Below, in pieces: positions 1 through 64,000 of a stretch of DNA of 64,000 nucleotides. The first letter of the stretch is position 1, and each line of letters begins with the position of its first letter. The stretch covers positions 146,477,743 through 146,541,742 of the forward strand of contig OY294067.1 in assembly GCA_958510875.1 (NCBI GenBank), in the 5' to 3' direction. The notes below the pieces were generated by a model. That model was not told where the DNA came from. It saw only the letters and a program-made list of their open reading frames with translations, and searched no databases. Source of the stretch: Endomychus coccineus (Eukaryota > Arthropoda > Insecta > Coleoptera > Endomychidae). The position numbers and the translations under genes were made by a program.

Positions 1-755
1 ATAGGTGCCCCCATAGCACAGCCAGTTGTTTGTGAATAAAACACATCATGGTACTGAAAATAAGTTGAATTTAAAGTGAGATCCAAAGCTTTTAAAAACT
101 CTTCTTGAGGTAAATCACTATGTTTTTTTATATCTGGCCATTTTTTGATAATTATGTTTCTAGCCAATTCAATGGGGATACTAGTGTATAAGGATACGAC
201 GTCTAAACTAACTAGTTTTTGGTTGCTAGTGATTTCTACTTTATTAATAAATTCTTTGAAATCCCATGAATCTTTAATATGATAGTCAGATTTGCCTAAA
301 ATAGGTGATATTGCGTCAGCAAGATATTTTGATAAATTATATAACGGGCTTTGAACACATGAAACAATAGGTCTCAATGGAATACCTTCTTTATGTAGCT
401 TTGGTAGTCCATAGATTTTTGGTGGTTGTGAATTATGTACCTTCAGTTTATTACATAAGGATTTAGGTAATATATTTTTTGTTTCCCATTCTTTTATTAA
501 TTTATTATTTTTCGTTTGTATAATATGTGTAGGGTTTGTCCGTTATTTTTTGTATGTGTTTGTATCATTTAAGAGATTTGTCATTTTTTCATCATATTCA
601 TCCTTATCCATAATTACTGTCTCATTACTTTTATCAGGTTTGAGGACTATTATCTGTGGATTATTTTTGATCAACTGTTTCGTTGCATTAATATTTTTTC
701 CCAATTCTTTTTCTGTTAATGTTCTACGAGTTGAACTTTTTTTAAAATTGTATAT
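1..755. repeat. Left arm of 755-bp inverted repeat
   Basis: It pairs without gaps with 1405-2159 (position n pairs with 2160-n). The spacer is 649 bp. The repeat ends in the shared bases ATATAC. It is made by two head-to-head Penelope-like copies and is not a DNA-transposon terminus. Confidence 0.9.
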
Positions 756-32013: not shown

Positions 32014-34045
32014 TAGGCTGTGCCAAAAAAAATCGATATTTTTTCATTCCGCTCTTCTTCAAGTATATCATTCCCCGTTCAAATTCATTGAGATCCCCCA
32101 AATTTTAAACAAATCGGGTAATACTTAGAGGTGCATCAAGCCCAAAACGTGTTTTTTGAAGTTTTCCCTCAATTTTTGAGAGGTTTCTTACCACTGTTCT
32201 ACAATAACGGGATGTTTGATACTTCGAAGACATAATTACATCCAAACACGAAGAATTCGATGCATTTCAGTCGCCACATCCACTTTCCGACAGATATATT
32301 GGCGAAAAGAATCATTTTTTTAAGGCCTCAAAACTGTAATTCCAACTTTCAACTCCAATAACTTCATGTTTTTAGGTTCGTGATGCGTCATATGCTCTCT
32401 TAACGTAGTCTAGTATCACGCAGCATTCATTGAATTGATGATTTCAGAGATAATCGCCCATCAGCTATGATAATCTACACTCGAGTGACAAAAATGACAA
32501 AAACTCAAAGTGCGTTAACTCGGTTGCATTTAGTCGAAAATGGATGAATCTTTGAATTCTGAAAAGGTTAGAACCTTCCCTTTAATGTGATGTTTGTTAA
32601 TATGATATCGAATTCATTGCACCCCCTCCCACCTCGCTAAGAAAAATATGTTCCTGGTGTCAAAAAATGTCCCACTTTGACAGCTCGTAGGCCGAGCCGA
32701 AAAAATCATGGACTGAATTAGACAACAGCTCAATAAGTTTCAATAATTTTTCTTGAAGATTCCTAGAAATTCGTGTTACTACGATGATTTGGCGTGAAGT
32801 TAAGAATTTTTCAAAAAAAGTACCTTTTTGCGTTTTTTTCTGACCACAACTTTGCTAATTTTGTATCTCAATCAATGAATCTTCATAAAATTAATCGAAA
32901 AGTAATAAAGTTGATGGAATGAGTACAGAGTATATTCTAGTATTTACGATTAAATATTTTTAACAATTAATTTAATAATTTATAATCATACATTTAATAA
33001 TTGGTAATCATACATCACATTAACGCTTTTTTCGCGATGCTTGGAATTCGCCGCCCGTGCTCCTCAACAAGTACTGCTTTTGCTTTTCGTTCTTCGTCAA
33101 TTCGGAATTATATTTTGAAATTAACGCTATACCTCTTTCCGCGGTGTCATTTGTAATTCGCGAAAATGAAATTTTTTCTCTCCCTTCTATATAAGACTCG
33201 TTGCTTTTCCACGCAGTTGGATCTTCAGTTAAAAAGTCGCAGTTCACGACAAATCTTTCCAACAAGTTACGTGTATGTTGAGAGAATAGTTCATCGATAC
33301 AACGCGTTCTCCACATCTCTAATTCGGTGTCAGAATTTGGATTTAATAATAACCTTTCAACCGGCTACGAGCTGTCAAAGTGGGACATTTTTTTCTTATC
33401 AGGGTGGGAGGATGTGGAATGCATTTGGTATCACATTAAGTAGCATCACATTGAAGGGAAGATTCTAACCTTTCAGAATTCAAAGATTCATCTCTTTTCG
33501 ACTAAACGCAACCGTGTTATGTCACTCTGAATTTTTGCCATTCTTGGTGCATTTTCAAGTGGTGCGTTTTTTCATTCGAGTGTAGATTATCATAGCTCAT
33601 GGGTGATTCTCTCTGAAATTATTGATTCAATCAATGCTACGTGATACTAGACTACATTAAAAGAGCATATGACGCATCACGAACCTGAAAATATGAAGTT
33701 ATTTAAGTTGAAATTTGAAATAACAGTTTTAAGGCCTTAAAAAAGGTTCTTTTTGCCAATATATCTGTGGGAAAGTGGATGTGGCGACTGAAATGCATTA
33801 AATACTCTGTGTTCGGATGTAATAATGTCTCCCAACTGTCAAACATCCCGTTATTGTAGAACAGTGTTATTGAACCTCTCAGAAATTTAGAAAAAACTAA
33901 CAAAAAAAAGTTTTGGGCTTGATGCACTTCTAAATATCAATCGATTTGTTTAAAATTTAGGGGACCTGGATGAAATTGAACGGGAAATAATATACTCGAA
34001 GGAGAGCGAAATAAAAAAATATCGATTTTTTTTTGGTACAGCCTA
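32014..34045. mobile_element. Long-TIR DNA element with 8-bp target duplication
   Basis: The left arm 32014-32690 and right arm 33365-34045 are reverse complements over nearly 680 bp. Tips are TAGGCTGTGCCAAAAAAAA on the left and the complement of TAGGCTGTACCAAAAAAAAA on the right. The element is flanked by the perfect 8-bp direct repeat TTGTGAAG (32006-32013 and 34046-34053). Eight-base duplications are typical of hAT and P elements, and the tip starts TAG. The loop carries only a C-terminal coding fragment (33019-33366, minus). It is presumably non-autonomous. Confidence 0.85.
33017..33366 (-). pseudogene. C-terminal coding fragment inside the long-TIR element
   Basis: It is open on the minus strand from the inner edge of the right arm to a TAA at 33017-33019, about 115 residues. 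A run ITNDTAERGIALISKYN (about 33105-33155) and LTKNEKQKQYLLRSTGG follow an N-terminal segment LLLNPNSDTELEMWRTR. The motif NDxAERGxxLI...QKQxLL recalls a family of uncharacterised arthropod proteins seen in many copies, but I cannot name it. There is no start codon context. It is probably the last exon of a transposon-encoded or captured protein kept between the two arms. Confidence 0.5.
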
Positions 34046-41489: not shown

Positions 41490-42760
41490 AGTGCACTTTC
41501 AGTGCTGTTGCCAAGTATTGTGTTGGGTGTGTTGTTTTGTGTTGAGTAGTGCAACGTTCCAAGATGGCTCCGCAACTGGACAGCTCAATATCACCCCGCA
41601 GACGACGCTCCTGCATGCTATTCAGGCGAGAATAGCCGAGCTCCAGCGAAAAAGTGGGCGACTGAAGCGGTGGTAACACCAACTCAGGCCCCGCCGGAGG
41701 AAGGCCCGACCCCAGCTCCACTGACTCCCCCGACCGACATGAAAACGGATTCAATCGTGTCTAATGAGAAGGCCAAGAAGTGGGTTTCCCAGCAATCGCA
41801 AATCACCTATAACGGACCAGGTGAGCAATTTTGGAATATCTGACCCTAATTTCCTCTCCAGCGAGAAGAAAGAAGAAAAGACACCACCGAATATTCCACA
41901 AGACAAAACCTAATGGATGAAAGTATCGCAAATACTGAACAATAACAAAATACGATATACCAAAGCAAAGGCTACGAAAGAAGGAAAAGAAATACAACCC
42001 GAAAAAGTTGAATATCATCGCAAAATGTATAGACAATTGGAAAACATGGAACTTTTCTCCCACCCATACCAACTGAGGAGTGAAAAGAATCTCAAAATAG
42101 TCATTTCAGCTGTTTGTATCGAAATATGAGAGGAAAAGATCTTCGAAGAACTTGAAAACTAGAGTAGAAAGCCGAGAAAATAATACGAATGAATTCAAAA
42201 TACCAAAAGCCAATGCCAATGGTATCAGTGGAAATACATAAATAATACGAATAAATATGTAACCATAAAAAATGATGCGGATTCGATACGATGGTCGAAA
42301 AACTCCACCTCAAAAACGGACCTAGACAGTGTCACAGGGGCCAACTCTTCAAACACATGCAACGCCTCTACCGTGCTGCATACAGAGATATGAAATGCGC
42401 AGGATAACACTCTCCTCACCTGTGCATGGAACCAAGACCTACTCCGGCTTTCTGTGCAAACTGCGGAGGTGCACATACTCTGAATCATGGCGTCTGTGAA
42501 GCCAGGCCGGAAAATTAGCCAACAAAAGAGTTGGGAAAACCGAAACCGACTACCCAAACACGTAGACCAGTGAACAATCCGTGGAACCGGAATATCACAA
42601 CAACCGCAGGGCCCAGCAAGGGAACTGAGGTTCACCCCTCTAAGAAAATAGAAGTCAAAACAACAAAACAAACATAAATCAAGCCTCATAAAATAGAACA
42701 ACCTAAAAAGATGGATCAACCAAAAATGGCGGAACAACAGAGTTCACAAACTAACAGCAA
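41490..42760 (+). pseudogene. Jockey-type LINE relic, ORF1 (gag-like)
   Basis: The region is GC-richer and proline-rich at its start (41560-41750), as in ORF1 leaders of Jockey-clade LINEs. Farther on, zinc-knuckle remnants appear: CHRGQLFKHMQRLYRA with a later MKCAG (about 42325-42410), then PAFCANCGGAHTLNHGVC (about 42437-42500). Frameshifts and stops separate the parts. It lies directly upstream of an endonuclease/RT relic in the same orientation, so both belong to one element. Confidence 0.68.
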
Positions 42761-42989
42761 AACCATAGAGCAACGGAAAAGAACAGATAGCTAAGCTGTT
42801 AACAAACCTGATTCTATCGTATTCAGAAAAGAATTCAAGCAAACAAGAACAACTGTCACTTCTCAAAAATATCTCACAGATAACACAGCTCATACAATAA
42901 TGAATACGCAACCTTACTAAACAAAACAAAACATCTCAACGATAACTAAGCTAAGCCAACAATGAATGCACAAGCAAAACGAAAACCAG

Positions 42990-44045
42990 CTACTCCCCAA
43001 ATAATGTTTTGGAATGCGTGTAGCATAACACAGCAGGAAGTATAACTAGATCAACACCTTCAACAAGAAAACTAGACGTTGCACGGATCAACGAAATATT
43101 CCAAAAAATGGAGCCAGTTGGCCGTCTACTCCGTGAACAGTTCTCCCAATAAGGAACTAGATGAAATCGAAATAGACGACTTACTAGGGACAAATGTACC
43201 CACAATAATAGTGGATGATCTGAACTGCAAACATTCGGATTGGAAATGCAGGGCGACAAATTCAGAAGGAAAACAGCTGCACAAATATGTCGAGAACTGG
43301 TAATAGTAGCTTCAACCGAACCAACGCGTTTCCCAACTAATGGCCGCAACGAGGCCTTCTTGGATATAACAATAAAGAAACACATTATACAGCCTTATCA
43401 GATTATATCAAAAGAAAAATTGGACTCGAAACATAACCCAGTGTTCCTTACGGTAGGAGTTAAAGCCGAAGAAAAGGCCGCCTACAACACTTAATTTACG
43501 GAATACGAGAGAATGAAACAGCTTATAAACCTAAACGCCCAAAGCCTGAAAATAGGATACACGGACGCGCTAGAAAACGAAATAAGTCATTTCGACAGAA
43601 CAATAGAAACGGCCTTTAACGAATCAACAACTATCGCCAGGTAAGAAATCAAATCTGCACACATCATTCATAGCACAAAAGACCTCATCAAATAGAGAAA
43701 CATGGCAAGAAAGGTATTTCATTCGAAAAAATCACCTCAAGATGAAGTGGTACTAAATAGTCTGAACACGGAAATTCAGCATAACCTATCAGGGTACAGG
43801 AACGAGAAATGTAACCCAAAAATGAAAGAGGTATGGCACGCTGGATTGCTACATAAGATGTACAGATACAACCTACCAATAGCCTAGCTGAAACTTATAG
43901 ATTCTTTGGAAGAAAGACAAGCAGAGGCAAATGTAACGCAAGGGTGATCCTTGGACCAGTACTCTATAACTTTCATGCCGCAGATATACGTAAGACAACA
44001 GGAATAGACTTAGCCCAGATGACCGATATCCTAACCCGTAGGTAC
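42990..44045 (+). pseudogene. Jockey-type LINE relic, ORF2 (endonuclease and RT fragments)
   Basis: An AP-type endonuclease fragment reads NVPTIIVDDLNCKHSDWKCR (43190-43250) and continues across a frame change as VASTEPTRFPTNGR (about 43308-43345) and DITIKKHI. DLN.KH..W.C is the endonuclease motif of Jockey-clade LINEs. The linker region 43500-43890 is in pieces. Then a piece of RT is visible at about 43935-43990, with TQG followed by LGPVLYNFHAADI, the Jockey QG-S-LGP block. The catalytic DD box is missing. The element is cut by, or adjoins, the fold-back element at 44060. Confidence 0.72.
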
Positions 44046-59400: not shown

Positions 59401-61640
59401 GAGTATCAAGAGATCAAGAGACATGGACGGTTATTGGAGTCTCAGGGCGATAACTTTCAAGGATGAGCCAAGATTGTCTGTGCGCGTCCTGCAATGGCCC
59501 TTCTTCAGGTGAACACAGTGGATCTGGACCGTGAAGTCACTAAGCATCTCTCAAGATTGAATGTTATGATACCGTGCTTTTGACTGGAAAATTGCAAACG
59601 ATTTCGTCGAGGAACAGGCCGAATCTCCGGTGTCTGAGGTCTTCCATCCTCAAGGGGCTCTGCAAACGGCGACTGACTATCTCCAATATTCCTGGGAATC
59701 CTATGGAAAATACAAAAAACTCACACACCAAGAAGGCTCCTCGGAGGAGTCCTCTACTACTTTTCCTACCTAAGGGCTCCTCACAAGAGTCCTCAGCCCT
59801 CCCATCCCTACAGAGAAACTCCTTACAGGGGCGCTCTCCCCATTTCACCCCCACCTGACAGGGGCCAAGTGAGTCCTGTCTCCAGACCGAGGCACTAACG
59901 ATCCCAATGAATGGGGTGATAGATCTGCCCAGCAAATGTGGGTCGGCAAAAAACGGTGCAGGGAGGCGCCTCAAAAGCAGGAGGCTATGGCGACTACGGT
60001 GCTCGTAGCTTCATTGTCAAAGACAGCGGTCCAAACACCGCTCAAGAAACAGGAAACCTCGGGCTCCTCTGAGGAGATCACTGGTGCTCTTTGACCTAAC
60101 AAGGCCCAGCCGGAGAGATCTGGAGAGACGGGGCCTCAAAACGCATACACTTTTCTGGTTCTACACCGCAGGACCAAAAACGCGAATGAACGTCTTATTC
60201 TGTAATAATGCACGTATAATCTCGACGTACACTTTCTAGTAAGCCTACTATCAGCTAGCAATTAGCGGATTAATTGAACTCGCCTACACTACCCACAATA
60301 CATAACTCTCACTCTCTGGATATCCCGTGGTTGAGACCAGTTTGGCCTACTCCTATCATTATTTCAGCAGAGACTGCTTCCCTCAAATAAAAGTAAAAAT
60401 ATAATGACCCTCAATATATTCCGCAAATCAAATTTTCCCCAAAAAAACAAAAAAAGAAACAAAAAATTAAACTAGCAGGATCGCGTGAAACCCTCTGTTC
60501 ACTTTGCGGCTAGGATGTGAGATTGCTGCCTATTGCGAAATTTAATATTCTATTGTTCACCAGGTTTATATATAGTTAATCGAGTTGAGTAATTTTCACC
60601 TACTCAGCAGACCAAGGTAACCCTGGGCACGGTGACGTCTTTCCTACCCCTCTCTATAACCAGCATGTCCACTACTCTGTAAGGGTGGCTTCATTCATTC
60701 TTTCAGCGGTTTCTCACTCATGTATACCGGGCGTACGTTCCTTTTTCGCCGATGTAGATCTAGCGACACATTCACACTCTCAATCATTTCCTCATATACA
60801 CACCCTTCTCATGGAGTCGTCACGCTGGGGGTTTATACTTCGCTACGACTCTCTTGACCTAGGAACCATAATATTGTCTTTCTAGCAAAACACCCACCTC
60901 CCAAAAAAAATGTATTCACGACTTCTCATATACTCTCGGTTTCAGGACCACCGAAAGTCCTACACATAACTCTCAATAGTCGTTCCCGCCCAATTCGACA
61001 TGGGTCTCAATCATCGACTATTTCCCCTATCTGCTCGCAGTATTTACGAACTAGTATCTCATTCATCACTTCCCGGCGGTATCTACTCATCAACTCGCAA
61101 TGTGCGTTAACGGCCTCTCAATCCAACCTGGATTTGTCAAGATTCCTGTCCAACCTGGCCTATCCGTCCACAGCGGAATTCCCCCAGGCTACCTTCACAG
61201 TCCACTTTGGACTTGATTAACTCACACAAAACAAGAAAACTTTCCTGACCTACTCTCCCGCTCAATCCTCCTGGTCCGCGATTCTCCGATCAGAGCACCA
61301 GAGGAGCCTTCAGATCTCTTGCTTCTCCCGGAACATCCGCGTGCTGACCGCCCTCTCGAGTATGACTGGAGGGACCTCGTGAACCTTCCCCGGTTCCATC
61401 CCTGCGGAAGATCTACTCCTTAAGTTTTGAGATTCTTATTTCCTGACAGAATTTCCACATCGTCCTGCGTCATACTCAATGTCCTTAGCACCTCAGGGCC
61501 ACCCTGGCACTCGAGACGGTTCCTTGTGGTCGCAAGGAGACCACCTCGCTAAATCCTCTACTCCGAGACATTTCTAGGGTAACAAGAAAGAGGTCTCGAT
61601 CAAAACGCGAACGATTCCAAAGCGAATCGTTCGCTCAAAC
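59400..61640. other. GC-richer non-coding block, 3' side of the macrodomain gypsy element
   Basis: The composition shifts clearly upward at about 59440 and stays high. A 136-codon minus frame (59564-59974) and overlapping plus frames exist, but neither has a recognised motif. Words like GGCTCCTC and GGAGTCCTC recur near 59735-59790 and 60055. Much of 60480-61640 probably represents the 3' LTR and untranslated part of the minus-strand gypsy element whose pol ends near 61660. LTR edges cannot be set because the partner LTR lies outside the window. Confidence 0.35.
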
Positions 61641-61660
61641 TTCCCGGCTCGAAGGCCCGT

Positions 61661-61950
61661 TTATCTTCGTTCCATGTACGCGTGATAGAATGAAGGTGGA
61701 CGCCGCACGCGCTTAGGTTTCCGCAAAGCGATGGGTGTATCCATCCGATTTCGGCTGTCCCGTACTCTTGTGGGACGATCCATTTCCGGTGCCGGCCTTA
61801 TATCTGGCAACAGAGGCAATTTATATATATATTCTTGTAGTTCGGCGTCGGTCTCCACCTGCGGGTCGTTTTTAGGGGTTGTCAGTTGGTTGATTGCCAG
61901 TTAGTTGGGCTTCTTCGTCGGAGTCCACATCCTCCGGGTCCTCATCTACA
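61661..61950 (-). CDS. C-terminal tail of the macrodomain gypsy pol in a shifted frame
   Basis: Directly after the stop of the main pol frame another frame continues with acidic sequence (NVDEDPEDVDSDEEAQ). The last 65 codons (61661-61858) end KRVRRPPSFYHAYMERR and stop. Tails of this kind follow the integrase in many gypsy elements. One or two frameshifts separate it from the main frame, so in this copy it is either lost or read only by frameshifting. Confidence 0.45.
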
Positions 61951-64000
61951 TTACCCCAGCACGGCTTCAGCCTGTTGGTGAACTACGACATCTTTCCGGC
62001 TACCTATAGGCCTGATTCGGTAATTTACCTGTCCGATTTGTTCCAATACCCGGCATGGACCCTTCCATTTATTTGCCAATTTCTTACTGACCCCAGGGGC
62101 CACTGCCTCGGCACGCAAGTATACTAGGTCTCCCAATTGACAATTCCGCGGTTTCAGGTTTTTCTTATACTGGCGTTCTCTAGTGTCGGTAGCTCGTTCC
62201 AAATTCCCCTTCACGTGCTGGAAAACTACATTTATTCGCCCTAATAGTTCAGCCGCATAGTTTATACTATCGTACCTAACACGGCCCCGTTCTAACTCCG
62301 TGGGAGAGATAGGATCTCTCTCGTAAAGTAAGAAGTGGGGGCTGTAGCCAGTGGATGAATGTATTTGTGAATTATACGCAAACGATACGTAGGGAATCCA
62401 ATTCTCCCAATCCCTCTGGTCTTTTCCTACATAGTGTGATAAAATGTCTTTTATCACTCTATGAGCTCTTTCCAATCCTCCATTTGATTGCGGATGAAAT
62501 GGAGATGTACGACACTGCTTAATTCCCAACTTCTCGCACACTTCTCTCATAACCGCTGACATGAAGTTTGTACCCTGATCTGTTATCAAGAGCGCTGGCG
62601 CAGAGTGTCGTAAAACTATACGTTCTACGAAGGCGCGTGCTACAGTGTTCGCTGACTGATCGGGAATAGGCACTATCTCTATGTATTTAGAGAAGTGATC
62701 TTGGAACGTTAACAGATATTTGTTGTTATTTTCAGATCTTATGAGCGGGCCTACAATATCCATTGCCGTTCGTTCGAACGGTTCATTTACTGGGGGAAAT
62801 CTTCCCAGCGGGGCCTTCCGCAAATGTGGAGACGTTTTCCGGAGGTTGCAGACATGACACTTCTTGACATAATTGAATATGTCCAGTCTCATCCGTGGCC
62901 AGAATAGCCTTTGTTTCATCAACTTCCAAGTACGAAATCGCCCGGGGTGACCTATATAAGCAACATCATGATAATCGTGCAACGCTCTATTTACCCAATT
63001 TCGCGGTATGACCAAACGCTTGCAGCCGTCGGCCTCCATTCTATACAACACTCCATCTTTGTTAATTCTAAAATCGCTGCCTTCCTCATAGGATACTATC
63101 GTATCCATTATTTTGACGCAACCCTCGTCGCTCTTTTGCGCCTCCGCAATCTCTGCCCAATTCCATGCGGGCTCTAGATCTACCTGCGCGGCCAATACTT
63201 TTGCCTTTGAATTTAACGCATGAACTCCTATCTTTATCGGCGTGTGACTGAACATCCACGCCAATATTCCGCGTACCGTTTCCCAACTCAACCCGTCTAA
63301 GCCCGACGCTATTTTGGGCATAGCTAACCGCATAATTCCCTGCTCTAAGCATTTTTGACGCAACCTCCACAAAGTTTGAAACACAGTTTGGTACGTTGGT
63401 TTATCGGTGCTCAATTCCTTTGTCACCAAATGAAAAGTAGGGCGCCCCTGTACCTCCATGCTGGCCACCTCACCTACCTTCTTATTCAGCTTTTTAAGCT
63501 TGAAGATATTTCCATATTTTTGTCGAAATTGGAGGGCAACTCCTTGGGACATTTTGAAGTCCGCTGCCACACAGTGGGCTAGCGCTAATTGCTCTGGGGC
63601 CTTTAATACATCCGTAACCTCTAGTTTAGTGGTTCGCACGGTTCCGCTGTCTATGTCTTTCAGACATCCTCCCAGCTCCTTACCCCAATCTGGGCCATCG
63701 TAAGCTCGGCTCAGAGCAACCACGTTCCCGTGATTCTTTCCCGGTCTTTGTATTACTTCGGAGTCATATTCTGATAGCAAAATTGACCACCTCCCTAGGC
63801 GGGATGTTGGATCCTTTAATGATAGTAACCACTTCAGAGAAATGTGATCCGTAATCAATTTAAACTCTTTTCCGTAGAGGAAACGACGATATTGTCTGAC
63901 GCCAAAGACTACTGCTATGCATTCTAATTCTGCTACTGTATACCTGGTTTCGGCATCAAGGAGTTTCCTACTTGCGAAAGCGATCGGCCTTTCCAGTCCG
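61951..64000 (-). CDS. Ty3/gypsy pol with OARD1-type macrodomain between RNase H and integrase
   Basis: One frame is open from the right edge to a TAA at 61948-61950. Residues here are counted from the Leu codon at 63858. Upstream of it, RNase H sequence RYTVAELECIAVVFGVRQY comes from beyond. Residues 1-51 finish RNase H (TDHISLKWLLSLKD, ending NVVALSR, where relatives have DALSR). Residues 86-216 form a macrodomain (see separate entry). The integrase follows: His297, His304, Cys334, Cys337 zinc site; catalytic Asp367 (AMDIVGPL), Asp427 (ITDQGTNF) and Glu463 (NGGLERAHR), with exactly 35 residues between the last two. A C-terminal GPY-like segment is at 576-606 (GDLVYLRA, KWKGPCRVL). No internal stop or frameshift was found, so this copy is fairly young. 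Gag, protease and RT lie outside the window. Confidence 0.92.
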   Translation of the reverse strand, partial: GLERPIAFASRKLLDAETRYTVAELECIAVVFGVRQYRRFLYGKEFKLITDHISLKWLLSLKDPTSRLGRWSILLSEYDSEVIQRPGKNHGNVVALSRAYDGPDWGKELGGCLKDIDSGTVRTTKLEVTDVLKAPEQLALAHCVAADFKMSQGVALQFRQKYGNIFKLKKLNKKVGEVASMEVQGRPTFHLVTKELSTDKPTYQTVFQTLWRLRQKCLEQGIMRLAMPKIASGLDGLSWETVRGILAWMFSHTPIKIGVHALNSKAKVLAAQVDLEPAWNWAEIAEAQKSDEGCVKIMDTIVSYEEGSDFRINKDGVLYRMEADGCKRLVIPRNWVNRALHDYHDVAYIGHPGRFRTWKLMKQRLFWPRMRLDIFNYVKKCHVCNLRKTSPHLRKAPLGRFPPVNEPFERTAMDIVGPLIRSENNNKYLLTFQDHFSKYIEIVPIPDQSANTVARAFVERIVLRHSAPALLITDQGTNFMSAVMREVCEKLGIKQCRTSPFHPQSNGGLERAHRVIKDILSHYVGKDQRDWENWIPYVSFAYNSQIHSSTGYSPHFLLYERDPISPTELERGRVRYDSINYAAELLGRINVVFQHVKGNLERATDTRERQYKKNLKPRNCQLGDLVYLRAEAVAPGVSKKLANKWKGPCRVLEQIGQVNYRIRPIGSRKDVVVHQQAEAVLG
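63211..63603 (-). other. Macrodomain (OARD1/TARG1-like) inside gypsy pol
   Basis: Residues 86-216 of the pol frame read like OARD1/TARG1, the enzyme that removes ADP-ribose from acidic side chains and deacylates O-acyl-ADP-ribose. Visible signatures are LALAHCVAADFKMSQGVALQ (the nucleotide-binding loop region), FHLVTKE...DKPTY, LAMPKIASGLDGLSWE and KIGVHAL at the end. Lys147 (AAG at 63418-63420) and Asp188 (GAC at 63295-63297) fall where human OARD1 has its catalytic Lys84 and Asp125. Length and order of blocks match a complete single macrodomain. The family assignment rests on remembered OARD1 sequence. Enzymatic activity is inferred. Confidence 0.87.

Follow-up and report, generated by a model that had tools for sequence, protein, structure and literature searches.

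TARG1, also known as OARD1 or C6orf130, is a stand-alone host macrodomain protein. It cleaves Asp/Glu esters as well as phosphoesters at nucleic acid ends, as set out in a section of a review (PMC7050489), and a portion of a second source describes the Lys84-dependent removal of thymidine-linked ADP-ribose from DNA (PMC8501950). Some fish epsilon-like retroviruses have extra macro-domain ORFs, as stated in a passage of PMC4977317 citing Basta et al. 2009. These endogenous retroviruses are likewise macrodomain-bearing retroelements; going by that passage, however, the domain is encoded by additional ORFs and not inside a Ty3/gypsy Pol, as we describe here. The macrodomain of the bacterial antitoxin DarG, second-best in fold to ours, retains only the Lys of the catalytic pair according to a part of PMC7050489. 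Such a Lys-only site resembles the apparent state of a telomeric ORF1 protein described below, whereas the families related to our locus also have the Asp.

Ty3/gypsy elements lacking a macrodomain have RNase H, zinc site and integrase in common with our locus. They differ in the linker between RNase H and the zinc site, which comprises 252 aa in our locus, compared to 118 and 97 aa in P0229 and P0230 (no macro match) and 92 and 105 aa in L075 and L076 from the same genome (no macrodomain). In chromoviruses, an extra domain is joined to the integrase; these chromodomains sit behind the integrase and tether the elements to chromatin. This is the place occupied by a macrodomain in a beetle form described below, but it differs from that in our locus, and the chromodomain is not a macrodomain. 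Within the open-licence PMC literature, which leaves aside preprints and most subscription papers, we found no report of a Pol-internal fusion, nor of the beetle C-terminal or the telomeric ORF1 form.

A macrodomain lies between RNase H and integrase in a Ty3/gypsy Pol

The window, a stretch of 64,000 nucleotides of the beetle Endomychus coccineus, carries on its minus strand the C-terminal part of a Pol open frame (61951..63999), which encodes 682 aa, is free of stops and remains open at the window's 5' side. A genome search with the macrodomain returned a 923-aa open frame at this locus. On the same strand, the frame comprises the C-terminal part of RNase H (63766..63999, aa 1-78; Pfam RT_RNaseH at aa 3-78, 1.4e-23), the TARG1/OARD1-type macrodomain (63214..63612, aa 130-262; Pfam, phmmer, alignment, AlphaFold2 and Foldseek), the integrase H2C2 zinc site (62833..63009, aa 331-389; Pfam Integrase_H2C2, 7.6e-18), the DD35E integrase core rve (62491..62787, aa 405-503; Pfam, 1.9e-14) and the integrase C-terminal region SH3_Tf2-1 / p58_C (61978..62133, aa 623-674; Pfam). 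The DD35E spacing can be read straight off the ORF, with 35 residues between the second D and the E. The order RNase H, H2C2 and DD35E integrase is that of a Ty3/gypsy Pol, seen in the window from RNase H on, and RT is also present in the same Pol frame of a related locus (L038, family C below).

The original prediction had placed RNase H, a complete macrodomain, zinc site and DD35E integrase in one frame, and both ORF and Pfam analysis confirm this arrangement. As RNase H, macrodomain and integrase all lie within one open frame, a frame artefact is ruled out. The bounds first proposed for the macrodomain (63211..63603) were close and only needed adjustment to 63214-63612.

Minus-strand positions 60192..61950 contain the element's 3' non-coding portion, probably 3' UTR plus 3' LTR. 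It ends in a sharp repeat edge, as 30 of 57 matches stop at the query base equal to 60192; the start of the LTR is not fixed and the terminal CA is absent at exact base 60192. No env frame, which would mark an errantivirus-like element, was found behind pol (no minus-strand ORF of at least 80 aa in 60192-61950), and no 5' LTR in the 5 kb examined, C1:146544300-146549300. Elsewhere, window positions 1-755 and 1405-2159 form a long inverted repeat of 98.7% identity. Shorter inverted pairs occur as well, e.g. 32014-32690 with 33365-34045 (80.5%), and the AT skew reaches 0.359 at 42001-44000, far higher than in the remaining window.

Sequence and predicted fold identify TARG1 as the nearest match

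Pfam Macro (PF01661) matches aa 146-244 with 23.0 bits, just above the cut-off of 22 (E 7.9e-5). This profile is a weak detector here: family B described below falls under its cut-off, and at 0.01 it matched 0 of 10 proteins, 8 of which have a macrodomain by other means. A phmmer search against PDB sequences returned human C6orf130/OARD1/TARG1 as the top match (E 3.4e-29), followed by the RNase III inhibitor 5m3i (6.7e-4), named DarG in the Foldseek list. The alignment to OARD1 covers 133 residues without a gap, 51 of them identical (38%). In an AlphaFold2 model of aa 79-331, residues 51-180 showed block-mean pLDDT values of 87-97. Foldseek ranked TARG1 (4j5s_C) first for this predicted fold, with a TM-score of 0.96 by target and an rmsd of 0.9 Å, and DarG (5m3e) second, with a TM-score of 0.82 by target. 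Thus, as judged from sequence and modelled fold, the window domain is a TARG1/OARD1-type macrodomain, as originally proposed. A chance match is excluded by these E-values together with the same domain order in other copies.

In the OARD1 alignment, Lys84 corresponds to aa 194 of Pol (codon 63418..63420, minus strand), Gly123 to aa 233 and Asp125 to aa 235 (codon 63295..63297, minus strand). For this numbering, we take the chain end to be residue 152. Residue 125 is Asp in the PDB sequence, although the review names Glu125 in the passage concerned (PMC7050489).

Three families of the genome carry the fusion

We searched the genome (906 Mb, 129 contigs) with the macrodomain and scored 150 matches of 245 candidates. 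Accordingly, the genome holds at least 150 macro matches, some copies yielding two. Three families carry the fusion: family A, that of the window, with 25 loci (L006-L030) of 81-100% identity, family B with ~60-66% and family C with ~35-41% identity. Family B includes 24 matches with one common score of 194.5 bits, 19 of which lie in a 1611-aa open frame, and open frames of family C reach up to 1678 aa. Across 32 loci (L004-L035), those Pol pieces that are present keep the order RNase H, macrodomain, zinc-site piece and integrase. Frame breaks are common among family A copies; in the stretches examined, RNase H was not seen at L024 and L026, nor integrase at L027 and L029. Such recurrence of the order across families A, B and C and in numerous copies rejects a fusion by chance or in one copy alone, which would have undermined the original prediction. 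A query with macro-less P0230 spanning the linker (150 of 4551 candidates scored) matched copies of A, B and C only from the linker on, and other copies (the first at C5:82182319) from RNase H through.

A further Ty3/gypsy element of the genome (L061, C1:167675900-167679400) has a degenerate macrodomain between RNase H and integrase. A neighbouring frame ends much like an insect env as judged by eye, an env-like tail seen at L061 only. The element bears on the possibility of a cytoplasmic counter-defence, in which the domain would strip host-added ADP-ribose from Gag, virus-like particles or element RNA, much like viral macrodomains. Besides the env-like tail of this carrier, such a role would fit the activity of TARG1 on modified proteins and RNA ends, as described in a part of PMC7050489. 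The fold ranking, led by host TARG1 with DarG next and not by viral macrodomains, speaks against it, and we regard this role as unlikely.

The catalytic pair is largely retained and the domain is constrained between families

For residue counts, rows containing stops or covering <85% were dropped, which left 16 of 25 rows for family A, 5 of 5 for B and 8 of 9 for C. Lys84 is kept in 15/16, 5/5 and 8/8 and Asp125 in 14/16, 5/5 and 7/8 of these rows, respectively. The original claim that both residues are kept thus holds for the window (K194 and D235) and for most rows of all three families. In a 40-row alignment of hand-chosen rows, Lys and Asp were the only invariant columns. In a wider set of 31 rows including the most divergent carriers, 27 of the 30 rows with a letter at the Lys position show Lys, and 26 of the 29 with a letter at the Asp position show Asp.

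To assess selection, which the original prediction had suggested, dN/dS was calculated on stop-free rows with a coverage of 85% or more per piece. For the macrodomain, the 80 pairs of a family A with a family B row have a median dN/dS of 0.15 (dS 1.47). The zinc-site piece likewise gives 0.15, from those 14 of the 80 pairs whose dS is defined, and dS is saturated for both RNase H and integrase core. In one A-B pair, the uncorrected pN/pS is 0.30 for the macrodomain (95% 0.21-0.40), compared to 0.15 for RNase H, 0.37 for the zinc-site piece and 0.17 for the integrase core. These ratios argue that the macrodomain is constrained, less so than RNase H and integrase core; on the point estimate it would be somewhat more constrained than the zinc-site piece, with overlapping intervals. 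Judging from the A-B substitution ratios, purifying selection acts on the macrodomain, and its constraint is not relaxed. All pieces give ratios of 0.37-0.49 within family A. Among family C copies, macrodomain dN/dS lies between 0.41 as the median and 0.78 as the ratio of means, both from very few changes, and dS is saturated between A and C as well as between B and C.

The integrase tree splits the carriers into two clades

Using the integrase part as query yielded 265 relatives, 120 of which were listed. Among these 120, a second-round macro profile found macro sequence before the integrase in 11 (P0228, P0309, P0313, P0315, P0320, P0324, P0325, P0326, P0330, P0333 and P0339), the match being weak in P0315 and a 21-residue stub in P0320. 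Pairwise search alone found nine carriers among the 120, P0315 weakly; P0225 and P0227 start with the apparent last residues of a macrodomain, as judged by eye. Both RNase H and zinc site were found in 100 proteins (97 relatives, the window, B and C). The linker measures at most 133 aa in 90 of them, all without a macro match, and at least 176 aa in the other ten, nine of which have one. The tenth, P0317, has a 195-aa linker in which two profiles did not find a macrodomain.

Across the integrase region, P0229 and P0230 share 51-53% identity with the window. An integrase tree was built from 49 rows, namely 43 hand-picked from the 120 listed relatives plus the window, B, C, L061, L075 and L076. 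In this tree, the carriers split into two clades, one with 9 rows (100/98) and the other with 15 (100/97), and macro-less rows lie within each. One common carrier clade was rejected (p-AU 1.7e-28) for a carrier group that was formed after an earlier tree and in which P0225, P0227, P0228 and P0320 were labelled by hand. The insertion therefore does not define one lineage, an idea raised by the original prediction: a single integrase clade is rejected, the close relatives P0229 and P0230 lack the domain, and in the beetle form it lies elsewhere.

In a macrodomain tree of 80 rows (with 35 of 80 unnamed rows used; 134 columns, long branches), one branch (96/92) sets off the linker types and a second (99/92) the beetle C-terminal types, which stand next to the host TARG1-like gene of the E. 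coccineus genome (98/82). Linker and C-terminal types as one clade were not rejected (p-AU 0.212). We read the linker macrodomains as probably derived from one source and later lost by, or swapped between, elements; two separate linker captures would also be conceivable. The C-terminal type was probably captured independently. Among IMG/VR contigs, 17 pattern matches were obtained, none of which was confirmed.

Several rows of the wider set of 31 show altered active sites. Arg replaces Lys in P0326 and P0112, Glu stands in place of Asp in P0309, P0315 has neither residue, and P0313, with no residue at the catalytic position, lacks the intact pair. A His-Cys pair is lost in five clade II rows (P0325, P0313, P0330, P0326 and L061). 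As read from these alignments, the active site is degenerate in part of the clade II carriers though the domain is kept. Such degenerate sites and the existence of macro-less relatives, with short linkers in 90 of 100 proteins, would suit a passenger or structural spacer of no biochemical role. Selection and the kept catalytic pair in A, B and C argue against this reading, and we consider it very improbable.

In beetles, a macrodomain follows the integrase

A macro-only search in proteins of 375-1193 aa gave 104 matches of 259 candidates, all from Aromia moschata (P0001-P0104). The macrodomain lies towards the C-terminus in 104/104 rows, with 0-188 residues after it. Judging by simple self-made patterns, the p58_C motif of integrase precedes it in 98 rows and a CCCH-like motif follows it in 88. 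The same macro-CCCH Gypsy form is present in P0106, P0110, P0111, P0114 and P0143, and similar-looking shorter predicted proteins occur in Brassicogethes, Callosobruchus, Leptinotarsa, Molorchus and Pyrocoelia among the 120 of 241 matches listed. The beetle proteins are frequently annotated as hypothetical or as an OARD1-like gene. In the E. coccineus genome, a macro-CCCH search (150 of 254 candidates scored) gave no row fully covering the CCCH part (query 171-189); three rows, all containing stops, reach residues 173-181. Separately, a 215-aa metagenome protein (P0191) combines a CCHC knuckle with a macrodomain and is perhaps Gag-like.

The beetle arrangement raises the possibility that the macrodomain is a reader of ADP-ribose and not an eraser: by binding ADP-ribose at DNA ends or in damaged chromatin, it would tether the pre-integration complex there. 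In the beetle form, the domain sits behind the integrase, where a chromodomain would sit; all 104 Aromia rows have it, 98 of them with p58_C before it. Clade II retains the domain despite its degenerate site, and the telomeric ORF1 protein has Lys with Gln at the place of Asp. Families A, B and C, however, keep both catalytic residues, which a pure reader would not need. By analogy with chromodomains, we hold such tethering to be possible, yet doubtful.

A telomeric non-LTR element encodes a related macrodomain

Contig C5 begins with 860 perfect TAACC units followed by a non-LTR element (L048, C5:1-7000; L047, C5:7000-10400). On C22 (L044, C22:2671-6126; L049, C22:6000-15999), 6149-bp units follow one another head to tail, separated by (TTAGG)12. 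The TTAGG location, a CCHC zinc knuckle in ORF1 and endonuclease plus RT in ORF2 are TRAS/SART-like traits of L044 and L049, which we presume to belong under these names. ORF2 has an internal stop in the C22 units. ORF1 (837 aa) contains a macrodomain (7.7e-27, 34% identity; tblastn with a fly TARG1 query) that scores below the Pfam Macro cut-off. In L044, the Lys is kept, Gln stands at the Asp place within a gappy stretch, and the catalytic pair is incomplete. The host TARG1-like gene of this genome (~C1:216515400-216520230; L062:1-756 plus L045:1480-1833) has an intron inside the macrodomain and an N-terminal extension ahead of it.

In human cells, PARP1 attaches ADP-ribose to telomeric DNA and TARG1 removes it, as described in a part of PMC11102865. 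TARG1-type domains in two Ty3/gypsy linker clades, behind a beetle integrase and in telomeric ORF1 may mean that retroelements took up ADP-ribose handling repeatedly. Lys without Asp, in a relative of the enzyme that clears this mark at human telomeres, would make the domain a tether or slow trap holding the element at chromosome ends. We put forward both ideas tentatively.

A possible eraser of ADP-ribose at integration

We give roughly even chances to the reading that a Ty3/gypsy group kept a predicted-competent TARG1-type hydrolase that would work on the integration complex or the DNA ends of the element itself. Host PARPs would put ADP-ribose on element proteins or on the DNA ends and nicks of cDNA synthesis and integration. 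The ADP-ribosylhydrolase, delivered in cis together with RNase H and integrase, would strip it from these proteins, ends and nicks, so that strand joining and gap repair may proceed. We infer the hydrolase role, delivery in cis, substrate and benefit from TARG1 being the best match in sequence and fold, the catalytic pair kept in A, B and C, the A-B selection and the recurrent association of TARG1-like domains with retroelements. In another retroelement, PARP1 was captured with LINE-1 ORF2p, and less so with endonuclease and RT mutants, as reported in a part of PMC5821459. Against the eraser reading stand the degenerate site of clade II, the macro-less near relatives P0229, P0230 and L075, and the dN/dS within family C with its very few changes, together with the saturated dS between C and the other families.

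With the fusion, the known components of LTR retrotransposons come to include a domain that would remove ADP-ribose or read it. The families concerned have many near-identical copies, and their macro-less relatives serve as natural controls, so that one can test whether cDNA integration is held back by ADP-ribose that PARPs attach. The telomeric retrotransposon parallels the clearing of telomeric DNA ADP-ribose by human TARG1, as described in part of PMC11102865. Macrodomains borne by Pol hint that the ADP-ribose marks of host repair matter to retrotransposons.
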